Assembly (NCBI GenBank): GCA_021816725.1
Contig: JAKAXD010000003.1
Span: 1-64,000, forward strand
DNA length: 64,000 nt
Origin: Thermoplasmata archaeon
GTDB taxonomy: Archaea > Thermoplasmatota > Thermoplasmata > Thermoplasmatales > GCA-001856825
Direction of reading: 5' to 3'
Part shown: in pieces, positions 111 through 7,904 of the stretch
Layout of the letters: every line of letters starts with the position of its first letter
How positions within the stretch are numbered: position 1 is the stretch's first letter
Translations under genes and position numbers: made by a program
The notes under the pieces: model-generated
The model's database searches: none
Told to the model about the DNA's origin: nothing
The model's input: the letters and a program-made list of their open reading frames with translations, nothing else

Positions 111-133
111 ATAATTTCTTACCAGGAAATTAT
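111..133. repeat. Perfect 8-bp inverted repeat, 7-nt loop
   Basis: ATAATTTC at 111-118 is mirrored by GAAATTAT at 126-133, separated by TTACCAG. It sits between the stop of the truncated gene and the left attachment repeat, overlapping the latter by two bases. It could be a transcription terminator hairpin for the upstream gene, though no T-run follows, or a recombinase/accessory-factor site next to the attachment core. Confidence 0.45.
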
Positions 134-151
134 GGAACGCGGGGAGGGGGA
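132..151. repeat. Left attachment-site copy (attL), 20-bp direct repeat of the tRNA-Ser 3' end
   Basis: The 20 bases ATGGAACGCGGGGAGGGGGA are identical, in the same orientation, to 7818-7837, which span the last 14 bases of the tRNA-Ser(GCT) gene and 6 bases beyond it. Identity stops at exactly these limits on both sides. A displaced tRNA 3' end facing an intact tRNA gene about 7.7 kb away is the classical footprint of site-specific integration by a tyrosine recombinase. Confidence 0.75.
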
Positions 152-198
152 TACGGACTGAAGGGTTCGAATCTCGCAGGAAAGCTAGGAGAAGTAGA

Positions 199-321
199 AT
201 GCTTCAGGCCGGACTGATCCCATTGGAAGCCCTAAAAGAGCTCATCCAGGAATGGGAGGAAAGGTTTCCCTTACGGGAAGTCCCGGAAAGTCTGGGAGAG
301 CTGTTGGAGGTACTTGAATGA
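199..321 (+). CDS. 40-codon acidic ORF, probably the 3' part of a gene split by integration
   Basis: ATG 199 to TGA 319-321 encodes 40 residues, rich in Glu and Leu and likely helical. The same frame is open back to 115, through the left attachment repeat. When the element ends are joined (7792-7836 followed by 151-321), the frame runs unbroken from ATG 7792 to this TGA and gives a 71-residue protein with a basic N-terminal half and an acidic helical C-terminal half. I infer that this ORF is the severed C-terminal part of that protein, not necessarily an independent gene. Function is unknown. Its place next to a recombinase gene in the circular form would suit an accessory or directionality factor, but no motif proves it. 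Confidence 0.4.
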   Translation: MLQAGLIPLEALKELIQEWEERFPLREVPESLGELLEVLE

Positions 322-452
322 AACAATCCCCCAGAGGATGGATATTGAGGGAGGCTCTATTTCTATGTTCCGATTGTCATCGCTAGTAGTGTAGCCATTT
401 CCGATGGTTATTGAGTCGTAACCATTGCTGGTGAGGCTAAGCAGGGATTGAG

Positions 453-2255
453 TTATGAGGTCACTTCTTCAAAAGGTATTCTAGCAACAAAGGAGGTCAT
501 TCCACTGTTCGAGCAGAAAAAAGTGCTCCCTCCGGTGTCGTAAAAAAAAACATCTATTGAAGACGTATTATTGGCCGAATTGATAATTTGATTTGTCAAT
601 CCCATTTCCTGCATTGGAATATTTGGATAGTCTAGCATAATAAATGAAGCGGCTAAGTTAACATCCGAGTCAGGGGCCCCCATTAATTCGGATATGTATT
701 GTATTGCAGCCAGAGTTGATGTTGCTACCCCACCTTGAAAGTCTGATGCACCCGCGACCATCACAGCAAAGATAAGTCCGGCTGGTGAAATGGTCACTGG
801 TGAGACGTTCGCATCAATGAATGTATTAAAAATCGAGCTCAGGTTTGAAGAGGACTGGATATCGAAGTTGTACACAGGAGGAGCCAGATGTCCTGCAGTT
901 ATTGACAAATTGTATGAATGTTGGTCGTGCTGATACGAGAAGGCATAACTAATTGCTCTTGCCCATTCTTCATCAAAAGTGATGTTTCCGTAAGTGGTAC
1001 CATTTGAAGCTTGAGCGGTACCATAGGGGAGGCCCTCTTTAAGCACTTGATTTGAACCAACATACTGCACCTTTAGGTCTGTCAGGTTAGTCATCACTAT
1101 CAGCTTTTGTCCTTGGCTTCCGTAAGGCACGTAAAAGTACTCTTTTCCGAACGCCCACGTCATAGTCGTATCAACTAAGGAAGTAAAATCGTAAAAACCA
1201 CTATTCCCAGCAAGCGCAGCAAAATCACCTGTAGTAAAATTTGTGGTAGTTAAATACCCATTGGCGCTGGTTAGAAAGTTTCCATTTATTGAAGTGATTC
1301 CGTCGAATTCGATCTTAGCCGAGGCGGATGTGGTTGTCCATGCTAAGGTTAATAATTCATTATTTGGCTCTTCTGTAGCGTTAATGAGGTTTACAGGATA
1401 GTAACCTGTGTAGGCCAAGGTTTTTGTCCAGACTACTCCGTAATCTTCGGGATGGCGCGTTCCAGTTAAGGTAGAGTTCAGGGGTAATGGTATAGTGGTA
1501 AATGGGTGCATCAAATTTAGGGTTAAGTTGACTGGGAACGATTGAGAACTCAGAGTCGGAGAGAGGGGATTAAATGAGATGTCTGTGTAGTATTCGAAAA
1601 TGTTCATATTGGTACCATTAACAGAAGTGTAAGTAACAATGAGGCTCATGGTAGATTCATCTTTTTCGTTGCCATTGAGGGATTTCCAAGCGTTCACAAC
1701 CTCTGTTAAGTTTGAACTTAAGGATATGTGCTGATTCCATTGAACTGAAGAAGTGTTGAGATTGATTGTTTTTTCGCTTCCATTGACATCCGGAACCCAC
1801 ACAGATATATCTGCAGTGAGATTGCTCATTATCGGAGAGATTGATGTACCATTATTGGCGTAAGCCGAAAGAACGACGTAAGGACCTAGCTGGGGTGAAT
1901 TGACAGTTACCGTCGAAGACGAAGATGCAGTTTTACCTTGGGAATCCGTAACATTTAAATAAATTTTCCAGGAGCCTACGGCATTGAAGGTGACATCGTT
2001 AGAAGTGCGATAATAGCCAAATGATGTTGAAGTTCCATTGAGCATGAGAGCATATGAGTATTTATACGGCAAAGTTCCACCAGTTGTGTTGTTCGTAAAA
2101 AAGACCGACTGCCATTTTTCTATGATTTCGGAAGAAGGGAATAGGTGTATCGACATGGATGATTTTTCCTCCTCCAAGATTCCAGAGTGATATGCGATAG
2201 CAAATGCTGTTCCGATAACCAGTACAACTATTGCCACAGAAACTGCTCGATTCAT
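453..2255 (-). CDS. Large N-anchored extracytoplasmic protein with PKD-like domain
   Basis: A 600-residue protein when started at the ATG at 2253-2255, which places a hydrophobic signal-anchor (AVSVAIVVLVIGTAFAIAY) directly at the N terminus, as in its paralogue at 3334-4920; an in-frame start 24 codons further up is also possible. Residues about 35-120 look like a PKD-type beta-sandwich (GGTLPYKYSY, then GSWKIYLNVTDSQGKTA), absent from the paralogue. The rest (about 125-600) aligns by eye with the paralogue: VVLSAY..GTS.SPIM.NL near the start, an FGKE.F..PYGS segment, IQSSSNL and a final YDTGG motif. Many N-x-S/T sequons suggest a glycosylated cell-surface protein. No function can be assigned. 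It lies within the element next to the thioredoxin-like gene. Confidence 0.7.
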   Translation of the reverse strand: MNRAVSVAIVVLVIGTAFAIAYHSGILEEEKSSMSIHLFPSSEIIEKWQSVFFTNNTTGGTLPYKYSYALMLNGTSTSFGYYRTSNDVTFNAVGSWKIYLNVTDSQGKTASSSSTVTVNSPQLGPYVVLSAYANNGTSISPIMSNLTADISVWVPDVNGSEKTINLNTSSVQWNQHISLSSNLTEVVNAWKSLNGNEKDESTMSLIVTYTSVNGTNMNIFEYYTDISFNPLSPTLSSQSFPVNLTLNLMHPFTTIPLPLNSTLTGTRHPEDYGVVWTKTLAYTGYYPVNLINATEEPNNELLTLAWTTTSASAKIEFDGITSINGNFLTSANGYLTTTNFTTGDFAALAGNSGFYDFTSLVDTTMTWAFGKEYFYVPYGSQGQKLIVMTNLTDLKVQYVGSNQVLKEGLPYGTAQASNGTTYGNITFDEEWARAISYAFSYQHDQHSYNLSITAGHLAPPVYNFDIQSSSNLSSIFNTFIDANVSPVTISPAGLIFAVMVAGASDFQGGVATSTLAAIQYISELMGAPDSDVNLAASFIMLDYPNIPMQEMGLTNQIINSANNTSSIDVFFYDTGGSTFFCSNSGMTSFVARIPFEEVTS

Positions 2256-2345
2256 CTTCAAGATTCTCCATCCACTTTTGCTATTTACTATATTCCACCT
2301 TTGCAATTCTATCAACGATTTTACCATGGTGCTATCGACCAGTGT

Positions 2346-3068
2346 TCATATTCTCTCTATCTGTTCTGGCATTTGCATAGGCAATTCTTGGTTTTGCCCT
2401 GCCATTGCACCCTTGTTTGGCACCTCAAACAATTCTTTATGGTCACTTACGTACTTTATTGCAGCGCTTATATTAGAAGCTTCAGCACTAATCTCAGCTC
2501 CGATTCTAGAGGTTGGAATTTGTTTTTCTATATCTGTCCAATTTGAGTTTACCAAAAGATTGGGGGAAAATCCAGATCCTAAGTGTAGATAGACTCCTCC
2601 TATTAACAAAAAGGGTATTGCACCTCGTGAATCGTATTTCTGAAATAATGATTTCCCTGTTGAATTGAAATCCTGAAGGTTTTGACTCGGCTCAGAGTTA
2701 CTCGTTTCATCTTCCCAGAAGGCAATCTTTGTACTATTCAAGGAGGCATTTGAAAACCCATAACCTGTAATATTTGGGAATTTTTCAGATGAATTTGATG
2801 TGATTTTTGTCAACCCTGTAAGTTTACCATACTGCTGTAGGGCCTCAACAATAGACCAACTTTCTGCCGTACAATAAGGACAAGCCTCGGCACCTATAAA
2901 TATAACTACAATTTTTCCACTTTGAGTAAGTAATGTATTCCCGACTAGAGTGAAATCTTGTATCCTCTTCTCAGGGAGTTTAGTATAGTTTAATGAGTGT
3001 ATTTGAACAACCGTAAAGAGCACTGCTGCGACTACTAAAGCTATTATCATTATCGTAATAACTGGCAT
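2346..3068 (-). CDS. DUF929 family membrane-anchored thioredoxin-like protein
   Basis: 240 residues. An N-terminal transmembrane helix (ITIMIIALVVAAVLFTVV) is followed by IVVIFIGAEACPYCTAESW, with the CPYC pair at residues 63-66; a redox-type CxxC after a G-A-E strand is the hallmark of the archaeal DUF929 family, thioredoxin-fold proteins of unknown substrate. Topology predicts an external thiol-oxidoreductase domain. The frame upstream of ATG 3068 stays open for about 30 codons and encodes a very basic stretch but holds no usable start, so 3068 is taken. It lies between the two paralogous surface proteins, none of which is obviously Cys-rich, so its target is unclear. Confidence 0.7.
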   Translation of the reverse strand: MPVITIMIIALVVAAVLFTVVQIHSLNYTKLPEKRIQDFTLVGNTLLTQSGKIVVIFIGAEACPYCTAESWSIVEALQQYGKLTGLTKITSNSSEKFPNITGYGFSNASLNSTKIAFWEDETSNSEPSQNLQDFNSTGKSLFQKYDSRGAIPFLLIGGVYLHLGSGFSPNLLVNSNWTDIEKQIPTSRIGAEISAEASNISAAIKYVSDHKELFEVPNKGAMAGQNQELPMQMPEQIERI

Positions 3069-3189
3069 CCAGTACCGTCTCCTCTGCTTTCGAGTTTGAA
3101 CGTTTTTGAACTTTCTTGTATTCGTGGAGTCACCTTCTTTATAACTCGAATGAGTCTAAAAATAATCTGTTAAGAATATAATTAAAAGG

Positions 3190-3259
3190 TTGAAAGTGAA
3201 CTAAACCTGTCTGATTTGTCTTGCCACTTTGATTTAGAGGCATATTAGTTCACTCTCAA
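3190..3259. repeat. 15-bp inverted repeat with one mismatch
   Basis: TTGAAAGTGAACTAA at 3190-3204 and TTAGTTCACTCTCAA at 3245-3259 are reverse complements except for one base, separated by 40 bases. They lie in the intergenic space between the stop of the paralogue at 3334-4920 and the DUF929 gene start, both on the minus strand. They could form a hairpin at the 3' end of the upstream transcript or act as a regulator site for the DUF929 gene. Confidence 0.4.
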
Positions 3260-3333
3260 TAGATTAAATAAAGAGTTGAATATAGCTAGTCTCATTTCTC
3301 TTCCTCATATATTTTCGGTTGTCGATCCATTTG

Positions 3334-4920
3334 TCATGCTGCAGTTACGTTTACATATGGGGTCCTTGCCAGATATGAAACACTGTTGTTGTTGAAGTAT
3401 GTATTCCCCCCAGTGTCATACATCGTGACCTTTACCGAAGACGTGGGATCAGCTCCATTGACAATCTGATTCCAGGCTGTCATTGTCTGCAAGCTTCCCT
3501 GAGTACTGACTACTAAGGTAAATGAAGAAGCTAAGTTTACAACTGAATCAATGAACCCTCCAATTGAAGCTATCGTTGCTATTTCTCCAAGATCAGCTGC
3601 TGTGGAGCCACCTGGAAAAGCAGATGCTGCGGCCGCCATGATAGCTAGAATCATCCCTGTGGCGGAAATTACCATAGCCTCTGCTCCCTCATCCTTTATT
3701 TGATTAAGAATGCTGTTTAGGTTTGAGGAAGACTGAATATCGAAGTCACTTACAGTTTGATAGGAACCTGCTGGAATAGTGAAATTATATGCTTCGTTTG
3801 TGTATTCGTTGGAAAACCCATATGCCACTGCCTCTGCCCAATACTCATCAAATATGGAGTTGCCATAAGTACTGCCGGAAGGAAGTGGACCTGTAGGAAG
3901 CGAGAAACCTTCAGCGGTAATGCTAGATGCTCCAGAATACTCGACCTTTAAAACTGAAATGGGTGTTGAGCCCAGATATTCACATTCATTGCTTCCGTAA
4001 GGTTGGAAGAATTCCTCCTTTCCGAACGACCACGTGACTGTCGTGTCTGTTAAATATAAGAGATCGTACAATTGACTGTTGCCAACAAGAGTGTCTTCTT
4101 GGGTATTGTACACTAAACCGGAGGTTGCGTATCCATTTGCGCTAGATAAGAAAACTCCGTTTGTCGAAGTTAACCCATCAAACTCAAACTGGGCTTGGAA
4201 AGATGTAGATGCCCAAGTAAGGCTCAGTTCTTCATTGCTTGGCTCTACTGTCGAGTTGATTATGTATAACGGGTACCACCCCGTTTCACTCATGTTATCA
4301 GTCCATACTGTCTGTTCATCACCTGGAGGGCAAGGGCCCGGACCTATCTCCCCCATAGGCGACGGTGAGTCACTTAGAGCTGTTAGTGGAGTGTTATTCG
4401 AAGATAAAGGAATTGTTGTTAACGGCTGAACCAAATTCATTGTGAAATTATTGATAAAGACCTGCGACACGAGGTTTGCTGAAAAAGGGTTGAAAGGTAT
4501 GTTCGTGTAGTATTCGAATATTTCAAGACTAGAACCAATTACTTTAGTATAGAAAACTAGGAGACTCATAGTAGGTTCGCTGTCCTTGTTATTCATAAAC
4601 GACTTCCAAGCATTGACAGCCTGTACGAAATTTGGACCAAGTGGTATAGTTTGATTCCAGTTAACTGCAGAGCTGTTTAGATTGACCGTTTTCCCTTCCC
4701 CATTCGGTGAAGGGACCCAGACAGATAAGTCAATACTGAGATTATTCATAATGGGAGAAACCGAAGTTCCGTCCTTACCATAAGCTGAAAGAACCACGGT
4801 CGGCCCAAGAAACTTTTGTGAGTTCTTGTCCTCAAAAGTTCCATTATAAAAAGCCGTAATAAAAGAAGCGAAAACAAACAATAATACTACGACTATGGCT
4901 ATTGCATATTTGATATTCAT
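3334..4920 (-). CDS. N-anchored extracytoplasmic protein, paralogue of the 453-2255 product
   Basis: 528 residues, starting at ATG 4918-4920 with a signal-anchor (AIAIVVVLLFVFASFITAF). It shares the whole downstream region of the larger paralogue: VVLSAYGKDGTS, SPIMNNLSIDLSVWVPS, NAWKSF, EIFEYYTNIPFNP, FGKEEFFQPYGS, FDIQSSSNL and a closing MYDTGGNTY. The PKD-like insert is missing, and a Pro/Gly-rich insert (PSPMGEIGPGPCPPGDEQ) is present instead. Alanine-rich hydrophobic stretches near residues 415-470 might be membrane-associated. Many N-x-S/T sites support an exported glycoprotein. Function unknown; two diverged copies flanking a thiol-oxidoreductase look like cargo of the integrated element. 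Confidence 0.7.
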   Translation of the reverse strand: MNIKYAIAIVVVLLFVFASFITAFYNGTFEDKNSQKFLGPTVVLSAYGKDGTSVSPIMNNLSIDLSVWVPSPNGEGKTVNLNSSAVNWNQTIPLGPNFVQAVNAWKSFMNNKDSEPTMSLLVFYTKVIGSSLEIFEYYTNIPFNPFSANLVSQVFINNFTMNLVQPLTTIPLSSNNTPLTALSDSPSPMGEIGPGPCPPGDEQTVWTDNMSETGWYPLYIINSTVEPSNEELSLTWASTSFQAQFEFDGLTSTNGVFLSSANGYATSGLVYNTQEDTLVGNSQLYDLLYLTDTTVTWSFGKEEFFQPYGSNECEYLGSTPISVLKVEYSGASSITAEGFSLPTGPLPSGSTYGNSIFDEYWAEAVAYGFSNEYTNEAYNFTIPAGSYQTVSDFDIQSSSNLNSILNQIKDEGAEAMVISATGMILAIMAAAASAFPGGSTAADLGEIATIASIGGFIDSVVNLASSFTLVVSTQGSLQTMTAWNQIVNGADPTSSVKVTMYDTGGNTYFNNNSVSYLARTPYVNVTAA

Positions 4921-5684
4921 CTTTTCACCTTAATTCCATCCATCAGGGCTCAGTATATGAGGGCAATTCCCCGGTTAGAAAGATTAGTAATATTAAAGGG
5001 TTCATGAGACAAGAAAGGTCCCGAAAAATTCGTAATACGAATCTATCCATCTTAGTAAGGGAATGATAGATGATTGGAAGAATAGACAGAAATGCTCATA
5101 AAGTCCTGGGATAGGATATTGCCAATTCTAGACTCACTTTTTTCCATATAACATAAAGTAGTGGAAAAATGTTTCTAATTAATCGGATTTCGAAGCTACA
5201 CGATGAACTACAAAGGGGAAAATAACACCCAATGATTGGATCAGGATTCTGAGATAATAGTTTTAACTAACCGAGTCGAATTTTCCTACGTCTAAGGGAT
5301 CATTAAGCCCGCCTAGGTCCTTGGCCTCTCTTGACTCAACCTTGATAATTGTTTGAAAATGGTACCGGAGTATCATTTTTTGGAGGTGATTCTATGTCCT
5401 TCATAATAGCACTTACCACAGCATTCATAATCATATTGAGTATCATAAAGTTCAATACCCTTCTTGACGGTAGCGGCTCTTTTGGAAATGGGTAGATACC
5501 CCTCAACTGTTTCATAAACTTAAATAATGGAAGCAAATGGTTAACTGCAATGGTCTTGCCTGTTCGGATCTGTCCTGTTTGGAACAAAGCTGGTACTATG
5601 GAGAGGGAGTGGGTGGAAAAGAAATCAGGGGAAAGGTACAACTATAGGGTATTCCGTCACAAGAGGTGAGTCCATAGGGTTAGA
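4921..5684. other. 760-base stretch without a convincing gene; possible decayed ORF on minus strand 5336-5641
   Basis: This A/T-rich stretch contains no RNA gene or repeat that I can recognise. A 101-codon minus-strand frame occupies 5336-5641; its C-terminal half has a hydrophobic run (RRVLNFMILNMIMNAVVSAI) followed by a charged tail. No family is recognisable and no promoter or ribosome-binding site stands out, so I do not call it a gene; it may be a remnant of something once carried by the element. The divergent winged-helix gene starts at GTG 5685, and the promoter for it should lie in the last 60 bases. Confidence 0.3.
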
Positions 5685-6509
5685 GTGGGTGCTAGTATTT
5701 CCAAAATCGTTGAGAAAGATAATTGGGAAAAGAAGCTAACTGACCTTCTAAATTCTGCCAATTTCAGAAGAGCGATCTTTACTACAAATGATATCGTAGC
5801 AGAGTTTGAGAGACGCGGGGCGACAACGAATTACAAAAGAGTTAGGAGGGATCTACTGAAACTTGTTGAATCCGGATTGGCTACAGTCGTGAGAAAAAAT
5901 AGAAAGGTCTACTTCATAAACAGTTCCAAACAGGAAAGATTAGACTACGTTATCAAGAAATTGGACATTACTCTTGAAGACACGGCGAACGATGGTACTT
6001 TCGAACGTCATTACTTGAGGTCAGTTGTTCTAAATGATAGCAGGTTTCCGTTGCGTTATATCCAGTTCAGGGCCACGGGGGATAACGTAAGAAACGGAAG
6101 CAAACTGTCGTTCAGTTCCTATGACATTACTAGAAAGGAGAAAGCTGTAATCTACTTTCTCGAAGATGCACCTCAAATGAAGAGAATATTGATAGAACCG
6201 CATGAACCAATACAATCCTATACGAAGAGAACTCTTTCCATTGATTATTTCTGGCCAGAAATCGGACCATCCTATACATTTACTTCGCCTACGCCTATGG
6301 ATTTCGTTGGATTCTCACTTGTGTCTAGATATGATTTTGACCTGAAGGTATCTAGAACTAACTCAGGCAGAACCGTTGTAGAAGACCTATCTTCGCGAGT
6401 GATCTCAACTATGGGGAAGGACAAACTACAAGTCAATAGGTTCGAGATTGAACGTCTACCTTCATTTGTGGTGCTAAAATCCATGTGGAAGCGACATGAA
6501 AAGACATAA
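5685..6509 (+). CDS. Winged-helix DNA-binding protein with C-terminal beta-rich domain
   Basis: 274 residues from GTG 5685 (no nearby ATG in frame). Residues about 12-85 look like a winged helix: IFTTNDIVAEFERRG, a recognition helix in TNYKRVRRDLLKLVESG and a wing in LATVVRKNRKVYFIN. Residues 100-270 are beta-rich and unidentified (RYIQFRATGD, FSSYDITRKEKAVIYF, then FVGFSLVSRYDFDLKVSR). It overlaps the next gene by 14 bases, so the two are co-transcribed and probably coupled. Such a pair inside an integrated element would fit element-borne transcription regulators, but the ligand or target is unknown. Confidence 0.6.
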   Translation: MGASISKIVEKDNWEKKLTDLLNSANFRRAIFTTNDIVAEFERRGATTNYKRVRRDLLKLVESGLATVVRKNRKVYFINSSKQERLDYVIKKLDITLEDTANDGTFERHYLRSVVLNDSRFPLRYIQFRATGDNVRNGSKLSFSSYDITRKEKAVIYFLEDAPQMKRILIEPHEPIQSYTKRTLSIDYFWPEIGPSYTFTSPTPMDFVGFSLVSRYDFDLKVSRTNSGRTVVEDLSSRVISTMGKDKLQVNRFEIERLPSFVVLKSMWKRHEKT

Positions 6510-7473
6510 GCAAGTTTCAACGTGTCCAGTGTGCGGCAAGAACGCCAATATATCGAGGAAGTTGGTTAAGACTAAGACTGGCAAAATTTACTATTATATA
6601 AGATTCTATCATTCTCCATTGAATATTCACTTTTCTCGTACAAACTCTTCATTTTCAAATCTTGTGATTGCCGAGAAAAAAGCCGAAAATTTATACTCAG
6701 CATTAATAGCGTATATTGATAAAGGTATTGGACAAAGAAAATTGACTTATTCGTCACTAAAGAAAGAAATTGAAAGATCTTTCGGTGGAGTTTTTTATAA
6801 TGAGGAGTTCAATAGGTCCGTTAGGAAAGCAATTACTGTCGGCCTCATTGAAAGGACGATGGAGAAAGACAAGCCCTTGTACTCAAAAACTCCAGAAGTT
6901 GCTTTGAGGGAAAAGCTGAGATTTGATCAGATTGCTATAACCTATTTTTTCTCCGGTGAAAATTTGACAGTTTCGACTTTCTTAGAGCCAATAAATACGG
7001 GCCATATTCCCATTCGGAAGATTCCATTTTTCATCCCATATGGGCCATTAGATTCCCTCGATTCTTTGAATTTTAGAACGCACGATGAGAGCGACGAGAT
7101 ATCGCACCAAGGCGTCATAATAGCTTTCTCAACTGCCTTAGAGACGGGACTTTCAATTTCACTAAACAGAGTTTTACGGAATGGCGAGAAAGATATCGTT
7201 TTTGCAAAGTACTCAATCCCAAATCAAGATAGTTCGACAAATTTTCTAGCTCAGGCTTCTGTCACCTCCTTACGGATTTCGGTGATAGCACAAAGGCAGT
7301 TTGAAGCAAGAATGTTAAGAACTTTAGCGAACGGAGCAAAAGAGACGGAAATACCCTTTCCACGTCACTGTTTCTACATGGAAGATCGTATCTGTTTTCA
7401 GGTCGAGCTAGACGGAATAATGAAAGGCGAGAACGTTTCTGTTAAACTGGTAGAAAGAAGGAAATCTTCTTAA
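6496..7473 (+). CDS. Zinc-ribbon plus winged-helix protein, partner of the preceding gene
   Basis: 325 residues from ATG 6496, overlapping the upstream stop. The N terminus carries CPVCGK near residue 10, half of a zinc knuckle (the second pair is not obvious). Residues about 55-130 can form a winged helix (YSSLKKEIERSFGG, FNRSVRKAITVGLIE, DKPLYSKT). The C-terminal 190 residues are beta-rich, with PIRKIPFFIPYG, which resembles PLRYIQF in the upstream protein. I infer the same architecture as its neighbour, perhaps from duplication, giving a heteromeric regulator pair. No enzyme motif is visible. Confidence 0.55.
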   Translation: MKRHKQVSTCPVCGKNANISRKLVKTKTGKIYYYIRFYHSPLNIHFSRTNSSFSNLVIAEKKAENLYSALIAYIDKGIGQRKLTYSSLKKEIERSFGGVFYNEEFNRSVRKAITVGLIERTMEKDKPLYSKTPEVALREKLRFDQIAITYFFSGENLTVSTFLEPINTGHIPIRKIPFFIPYGPLDSLDSLNFRTHDESDEISHQGVIIAFSTALETGLSISLNRVLRNGEKDIVFAKYSIPNQDSSTNFLAQASVTSLRISVIAQRQFEARMLRTLANGAKETEIPFPRHCFYMEDRICFQVELDGIMKGENVSVKLVERRKSS

Positions 7474-7520
7474 CACAAATATATCTCGTTACCTGATGAA
7501 CCTCAATAGCATCAGTCTAG

Positions 7521-7808
7521 CTGTTAGTTCAGATATTTCCTTCTTCCATAACAGATGACCTAAATAGAAAATTAATCGATAAGACGTTCAAAGTCCTATC
7601 TTGTCGATTCGTAGCCACTGAGCTTTTTCGGCGAGGTGCGAACCTCAGGAGGGTCCAATTTCACCTGAGACACTCCGATATTTCATCCGTTTTACCCTAC
7701 GTAAAGTTGAGCGAAGAAATCGAGGCGCGACGCAACGGGGAGATGCTCCGCCCGTTCTTCAAGAAGATTTCGAAAAGCAGGGTGAAACGATATGAAAACA
7801 AGAAATAA
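7521..7808 (+). pseudogene. Decayed C-terminal fragment of a tyrosine recombinase (integrase)
   Basis: The frame that ends at TAA 7806-7808 is open back to a TAG at 7518-7520 and has no ATG at its head. Its product carries the C-terminal hallmarks of Xer/phage-type integrases in order: RFVATELFRRGANLRRVQ, then LRHSDISS (normally LGHS.I..), then PYVKLSEE with the tyrosine in the position of the catalytic nucleophile. The H-x-x-R histidine is not visible (LSCRF), and the N-terminal and box I regions are missing upstream. I therefore read it as an inactive remnant. Its end lies 15 bases from the tRNA-Ser 3' end, where the integrase of a tRNA-targeting element is expected. Confidence 0.6.
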
Positions 7809-7839
7809 TCGAACCGAATGGAACGCGGGGAGGGGGAAT
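7792..7839 (+). other. 5' part of an ORF interrupted at the attachment site
   Basis: ATG 7792 is preceded by GGTGA at 7781-7785, a fair ribosome-binding site, and overlaps the 3' end of the recombinase remnant by 17 bases. Its frame enters the attachment repeat in the same phase as the frame leaving the left copy, so the circularised element would encode one 71-residue protein ending at 321. In the integrated state the frame runs into the antisense of tRNA-Ser and gives a meaningless extension to 8010. I report the element-side part only. Confidence 0.45.
7818..7837. repeat. Right attachment-site copy (attR) overlapping the tRNA-Ser 3' end
   Basis: This is the second copy of the 20-bp direct repeat also found at 132-151. 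It covers the discriminator base, the 3' acceptor strand and the start of the T stem of the minus-strand tRNA-Ser gene, plus six bases beyond. The intact tRNA is on this side, so integration regenerated the gene here, as in most tRNA-targeting elements. Confidence 0.75.
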
Positions 7840-7904
7840 CGAACCCCCGCTCCCATAGGGAAACGGCTTAGCAGGCCGTCGCCTTACCGCTCGGCTATCC
7901 CCGC
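7824..7904 (-). tRNA. tRNA-Ser (anticodon GCT)
   Basis: The minus strand folds as a class II tRNA: acceptor GCGGGGA/TCCCCGC with discriminator G (typical for Ser), D arm TAGCCGAGCGGTAAGGC, anticodon stem-loop ACGGCCTGCTAAGCCGT with anticodon GCT, a long variable arm (TTTCCCTATGGGAGC) and T arm GGGGGTTCGATTCCCCC. CCA is not encoded. It is 81 nt. The gene is the insertion target of the element on its 3' side, and its first ten bases overlap the stop end of the small CDS at 7895-8065. Confidence 0.95.

Follow-up and report, generated by a model that had tools for sequence, protein, structure and literature searches.

Insertion at the 3′ End of tRNA-Ser(GCT)

The left end of the window (the whole stretch of DNA analysed, 64,000 nucleotides long) raises the question of what has been inserted on the 3′ side of tRNA-Ser(GCT), how it came to be there, and whether it can still leave. 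A preliminary description had proposed an integrative element bounded by an exact 20-bp direct repeat at 132–151 and 7818–7837, with the right copy covering the 3′ end of an intact tRNA-Ser. Both boundaries hold. The repeat (ATGGAACGCGGGGAGGGGGA) is the sole exact direct 20-mer repeat when the whole 64-kb window is compared, and the target gene, an intact tRNA-Ser(GCT), is called on the minus strand at 7824–7904, so that the right repeat consists of the last 14 nt of the tRNA and 6 nt downstream. A direct repeat of the tRNA 3′ end is thereby found at the far boundary, as in tRNA-targeted integrative elements. The left flank measures only 131 bp because the contig (C23) ends there, the window start being the contig end. 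GC content is 0.409 in the insert and 0.447 in the remaining window; composition is not decisive, since other 7666-bp stretches of the window (97 placements) range from 0.407 to 0.469 and so span the value of the insert.

The preliminary description had also suggested a search of close relatives for an empty tRNA-Ser site, and such a site is present in G006, a genome of the same genus, in which the flanks are joined through one copy of the repeat. The right flank is 95% identical to G006 over 2183 bp, and the 131-bp left flank together with the core is 99% identical; both window repeats are delimited by this alignment. As the two flanks meet at a single core in G006, the difference reflects either a gain in the window lineage or a precise loss in G006.

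Occupancy of the Site in Related Genomes

The genomes compared are mostly drafts. Eleven genomes of the genus were examined, and the tRNA locus was found in nine of them and not in the other two. Right-end footprints occur in six of the nine (G000, G001, G002, G004, G007, and G009, the call for the last resting on only about 40 bases at a contig end) and are absent in G006, G008, and G010. A conserved gene of 169 aa lies past the site in 6 of 10 tRNA-flank loci of relatives (G001, G002, G004, G006, G008, and G010) and was not found in the remaining four (L033–L036), which belong to other genera. Its distance from the tRNA rises from about 0.4 kb (G008, G010) through 1.1 kb (G006) and 3.9 kb (G002, G004) to 5.8 kb (G001), and this varying spacing identifies the tRNA-Ser site as a hot spot. 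The same spot holds a penicillin acylase-like gene in G001 and G004 and a transposase-like fragment in G002 (judged by eye), all unrelated genes, and G001 has two right-end footprints about 1.85 kb apart.

Related Elements with Full-Length Integrases

The ends of the insert are homologous to those of an element of roughly 56 kb in G007, with 89% identity at the left end (132–363) and 85% at the right end (7605–7853). The homology stops sharply at 363 and 7605, and the interior (364–7604) has no DNA match to that element. At the same tRNA-Ser, the G007 element carries a full-length integrase (315 aa in a frame of 321 aa; PF00589, 3e-19) and, in addition, an intact endonuclease VII gene (PF02945, 3e-11). 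Contig C68 of G007 starts inside the tRNA end and continues into the integrase, while the matching left end is situated about 56.0 kb away. At that point, a second integrase stub and core open a further element, about 11.6 kb long and extending to about 67.6 kb; this succession indicates two elements in tandem.

Relatives of the integrase were searched for in 81 genomes, 32 of which have any match, mostly weak and away from the tRNA-Ser site. Those adjoining tRNA-Ser are found in G007 (89% identity over 61 aa to the window remnant described below), G077 (65%), G065 (59%, frame of 442 aa), G001, and G002; G065 and G077 belong to other genera. Together, the empty site and the cousins with a complete-looking integrase define this locus of Thermoplasmatales as a hot spot of mobile-element integration. 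Such elements seem to be little described in the Thermoplasmatales literature searched, including PMC2718499.

Two relatives with full-length integrases, those in G007 and G065, carry proteins matching defence families. Selected proteins of the G007 element (C68:1–56000; L087–L089) were scanned, and they include matches to DpdJ (1e-40), DpdA (6e-12), a type IIG restriction enzyme (4e-54), an AIPR abortive infection protein (8e-35), and RmuC (4e-84), alongside very long surface proteins. The element in G065 (C22:77–31592; L116, L090), 31.5 kb long and likewise at tRNA-Ser, encodes a CARF-kinase-AAA protein (3e-222) and HerA, methyltransferase, and Vsr homologues; its left flank resembles the right end of another element, and hence it too may be in tandem. 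In G071, a stretch of 3.2 kb beside tRNA-Ser (C1:127–3330; L126) has the same kind of left end; the 81-genome search reported no integrase relative for this genome, and the stretch is possibly another stripped island. Two contigs of the G007 bin (L037, C17:1–130; and L087:1–32) share the same tRNA-Ser end and have differing flanks, and the end of a further integrase may be visible on C17, a hint that strains or occupants are mixed.

Searches of IMG/VR viral contigs with the G007 integrase and with the window protein termed regulator B below yielded no relatives, so that by these queries the elements are absent from IMG/VR. In a search for provirus genes (capsid, portal, or terminase), five window proteins gave no convincing match to structural proteins in PHROGs or Pfam, the one ‘head and packaging’ match having an E-value of 0.1.

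Origin and Mobility of the Window Copy

The tyrosine-recombinase remnant that had been noted beside the right repeat is real but short. It is a C-terminal stub (7605–7808, plus strand), recognized by its homology to the G007 integrase and by matches to positions 135–170 of the 172 of PF00589 (E 0.0015, below the curated cut-off) and to phrog_216 (E 0.0073). Both H and R of the HxxR box, a mark of the tyrosine recombinase family, are missing from the stub, as is everything N-terminal. At the opposite end, the endonuclease VII gene is likewise a stub (318–363, plus strand, one base shifted), cut after about 15 codons where the homology to G007 ends. Open frames are kept by the two surface proteins, the DUF929 protein, and regulator B. 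The window copy, in which the intact integrase of a self-mobile element is absent, is decayed and cannot move by an integrase of its own; by itself, the element is probably immobile.

We therefore regard the insert as a decayed member of a family of integrative elements whose target in Thermoplasmatales is the 3′ end of tRNA-Ser(GCT), a reading to which we give a probability of about 0.9 and which is supported by the empty site in G006 and by ends homologous to those of the integrase-bearing G007 element. The earlier proposal of an integrative element is supported; it is refined by the decay and by the interior that lacks a match to the G007 element, and it had missed the apparently split small gene described in the next section. 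Recombination between the attP of an ancestor with a full tyrosine recombinase and the 3′ end of the tRNA would have restored the tRNA through the 20-bp core and left a second copy at 132; of these steps, the insertion is shown by the empty site. Later, the integrase may have been cut to its C-terminal stub and the endonuclease VII gene to its 5′ stub, and the middle may have been replaced by a divergent cargo (two surface proteins and a DUF929 protein) and by a peptide-regulator cassette, although the order of these changes is conjectural. Arrival of the ends and the cargo in a single step was considered and is not supported, since at the DNA level 364–7604 matches nothing in the G007 element. 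Most likely, the insert has become a permanent chromosomal source of surface-protein genes, unless the integrase of a relative acts on its two att sites.

This last proviso corresponds to an island that lacks a working integrase, has kept both att sites, and is moved in trans by the recombinase of a related element. The exactness of both 20-bp cores would suit such a mode of transfer, as would the full-length integrase available within the genus, with two such elements in tandem in G007, and a review of archaeal tyrosine recombinases (PMC8371274) describes split-integrase elements that were excised with the help of an exogenous related integrase. We nevertheless consider it unlikely, as the assembly of the source genome contains no second copy, circle, or attP contig, and no second copy of the window cargo was seen, given that homologues of surface protein 2 in the 81 genomes searched are confined to G011 (55%) and, weakly, five others. 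Much less probable is an ordinary variable region shaped by homologous recombination and transposons, with the repeat as a chance tRNA fragment. The unrelated genes at the same spot in G001, G004, and G002 and the recurrence of the regulator cassette at other places would agree with it, but the empty site is precise at the core, the ends share homology with an element that bears an integrase, and the remnant of a matching enzyme lies where expected, so that as far as the ends go this explanation is refuted. Barely credible, finally, is an assembly artefact joining unrelated metagenome-bin contigs at the tRNA-end repeat: the 64-kb window stands at the very start of a contig from a draft genome (78.8% complete), and this contig begins 131 bp from the repeat, but an overlap of 20 bp is generally shorter than the usual assembly words, and the sequence past the left repeat also follows the repeat at two places in G007.

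A Small Gene Apparently Divided by the Attachment Site

As a decayed integrative element, the island is ordinary in kind; its novelty is a small gene apparently parted by the att site. The 3′ part of this gene lies at the left end (145–321, plus strand) and is recognized by its conservation and dN/dS. The 5′ part lies at the right end (7792–7837, plus strand), where it overlaps the 3′ end of the integrase, begins with an ATG 6 nt after GGTGA, and runs into the att repeat; from the ATG at 7792, the core is read in the frame that matches the left-end part. In the integrated state, an in-frame TAA at 112 precedes the left frame, and none of ATG, GTG, or TTG occurs before its conserved part; in the window and both G007 copies, the element side of the core has no ATG ahead of that part. 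Joining the two window ends produces a frame of 71 aa, and a joined 71-aa frame occurs naturally at the B/A tandem junction in G007. The stop codon of the small gene overlaps the start of the endonuclease gene. The same right-end arrangement is found at the G007 elements and, with GTG as the start, in G077; the right-end ATG is also present in G001, G002, and G009 and is replaced by ACG in G004 (all frames read by eye).

The left frame differs between the window and G007A by 10.5 synonymous and 9.5 non-synonymous changes over 56 codons, i.e., with dN/dS of 0.23. The ratio is 0.32 between the window and G007B and 0.47 between G007A and G007B (55 codons each); with G065, it is 0.15 for the window and 0.21 for G007A (38 codons each). 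The two other frames give 1.5 and 3.2 for the window and G007A. A chance frame at the left end was therefore rejected, and the low dN/dS of the left frame in comparison with the two others makes it look like a gene. The frame is kept in both G007 elements and, more weakly, in G065, G010, G007:C18, and G071; a search with the left frame gave matches in 5 of 81 genomes, and the joined frame gave any match in 8 of 117, in some to the right-end part only. Two degraded copies (G010:C10 and G007:C18) are not near any tRNA-Ser.

Judged from the reading frames, integration would part the small gene and excision would restore it. We tentatively propose, at somewhat under even odds, that a small gene distinct from int and maintained by selection is divided over both ends of the element upon integration, and that its protein could be produced only from joined ends, in a circle or a tandem, with the endonuclease VII gene directly after it. 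Its att-encoded product would sense the excised state, and it might be an archaeal recombination directionality factor or early-stage factor controlled by integration itself. Two genomes speak against a gene spanning the core: in G065, the small gene has an ATG of its own beyond the core, in a frame other than the one that crosses it, and in part the same holds for G071, in which an ATG stands just after the core. According to PMC8371274, the archaeal integrases characterised all act without help from a directionality factor. A literature search for an att-spanning open frame found no precedent and gave only unrelated bacterial phage work. If real, an att-spanning gene would supply a simple rule, open to test, by which an archaeal element recognises its own excision.

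Comparison with Known Integrative Systems

Bacterial decayed islands and cis-mobilisable elements (CIMEs) have two att sites on either side of cargo that lacks a working recombinase. The window element resembles CIMEs in both features and differs in that it is archaeal and its mobilisation is only hypothetical.

With class II archaeal elements (pNOB8-like, ‘classical’), the tRNA-Ser elements share a recombinase gene beside the att core at a tRNA 3′ end; the integrase frame of the G007 relative ends ahead of the core and int is whole on integration, and in the window int is present as a remnant. Differences are that the core of the tRNA-Ser elements is 16–20 bp long, compared with 40–50 bp for pNOB8 integrases in PMC8371274, and that a small, separate, non-int gene appears to be split by integration. 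In class I (SSV-like, ‘suicidal’), as outlined in the same review, a gene crossing attP is partitioned on integration, and int fragments mark captured elements. Partition of an attP-crossing gene would be a shared feature, but attP does not lie inside int, as the int stop codon precedes the core in both the window and G007. An exception nearer to class I is G065, where the int frame runs through the core. For the element ICEKp1, PMC13023037 describes state-dependent switching of an int promoter. There, as would be the case here, joining of the ends on excision changes expression at the ends; a promoter is switched in that case, whereas a protein-coding frame would be completed here.

Surface Proteins and the Regulator Cassette

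The preliminary description had recorded surface proteins and regulators between the repeats, and this content is confirmed as two paralogous surface proteins, a DUF929 protein, and two helix-turn-helix proteins. Surface protein 1 (624 aa; 453–2327), the DUF929 thioredoxin-like protein (240 aa; 2346–3068; E 4e-23), which has an N-terminal hydrophobic stretch, and surface protein 2 (528 aa; 3334–4920) form one group on the minus strand. The two surface proteins are about 49% identical; a structure prediction for the second was unusable (pLDDT 35).

Divergent from this group is a cassette of three plus-strand genes. The first (5394–5495), recognized by comparison of cassettes, encodes a hydrophobic peptide of 33 aa ending in GSFGNG. 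Regulator A (5550–6509) would contain a zinc ribbon and a winged helix by similarity to other copies; it is interrupted by a TGA at 5667, with an open frame from a GTG at 5685, and has tryptophan in place of a zinc-ribbon cysteine. Its relatives occur at 26 places in 11 of 81 genomes. Regulator B (325 aa; 6496–7473) is modelled with pLDDT 77 as a zinc ribbon, a winged helix, and a beta domain. The modelled beta domain resembles Ost1/ribophorin I (6ezn_A; Z 15.5, 168 aligned, rmsd 3.4) and the N-terminal domains of M1 aminopeptidases (1sqm; Z 14.3, 164 aligned, rmsd 3.0), a predicted likeness of fold that does not indicate function. From its position, regulator B may have a role in the control of the neighbouring surface genes.

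The surroundings of seven cassettes were compared, namely those of the window, L092, L093, and L095–L098, of which L095 and L096 may represent the same ancestral place. All seven have a small peptide ending in S(F/L)GN or SFGNG, and a tRNA gene lies within about 3.5 kb of six, while none occurs in 18 kb of L098. Across loci, the peptides are hydrophobic and 30–40 aa long, and the cassettes often adjoin genes for secreted proteins. The source genome has two further copies of the cassette next to archaeal pilin-type genes (PF07790), one with a comparable peptide that lacks this ending and the other with no visible peptide.

DUF929 proteins are listed among the secreted proteins of Picrophilus torridus in PMC8345856. 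A longer DUF929 protein of 411 aa, encoded in G003 (C1; L098:12691–13926), seems by eye to have a winged-helix domain at its end, an arrangement that would couple a membrane thiol sensor with a DNA-binding part; the 240-aa protein of the window is without that domain.
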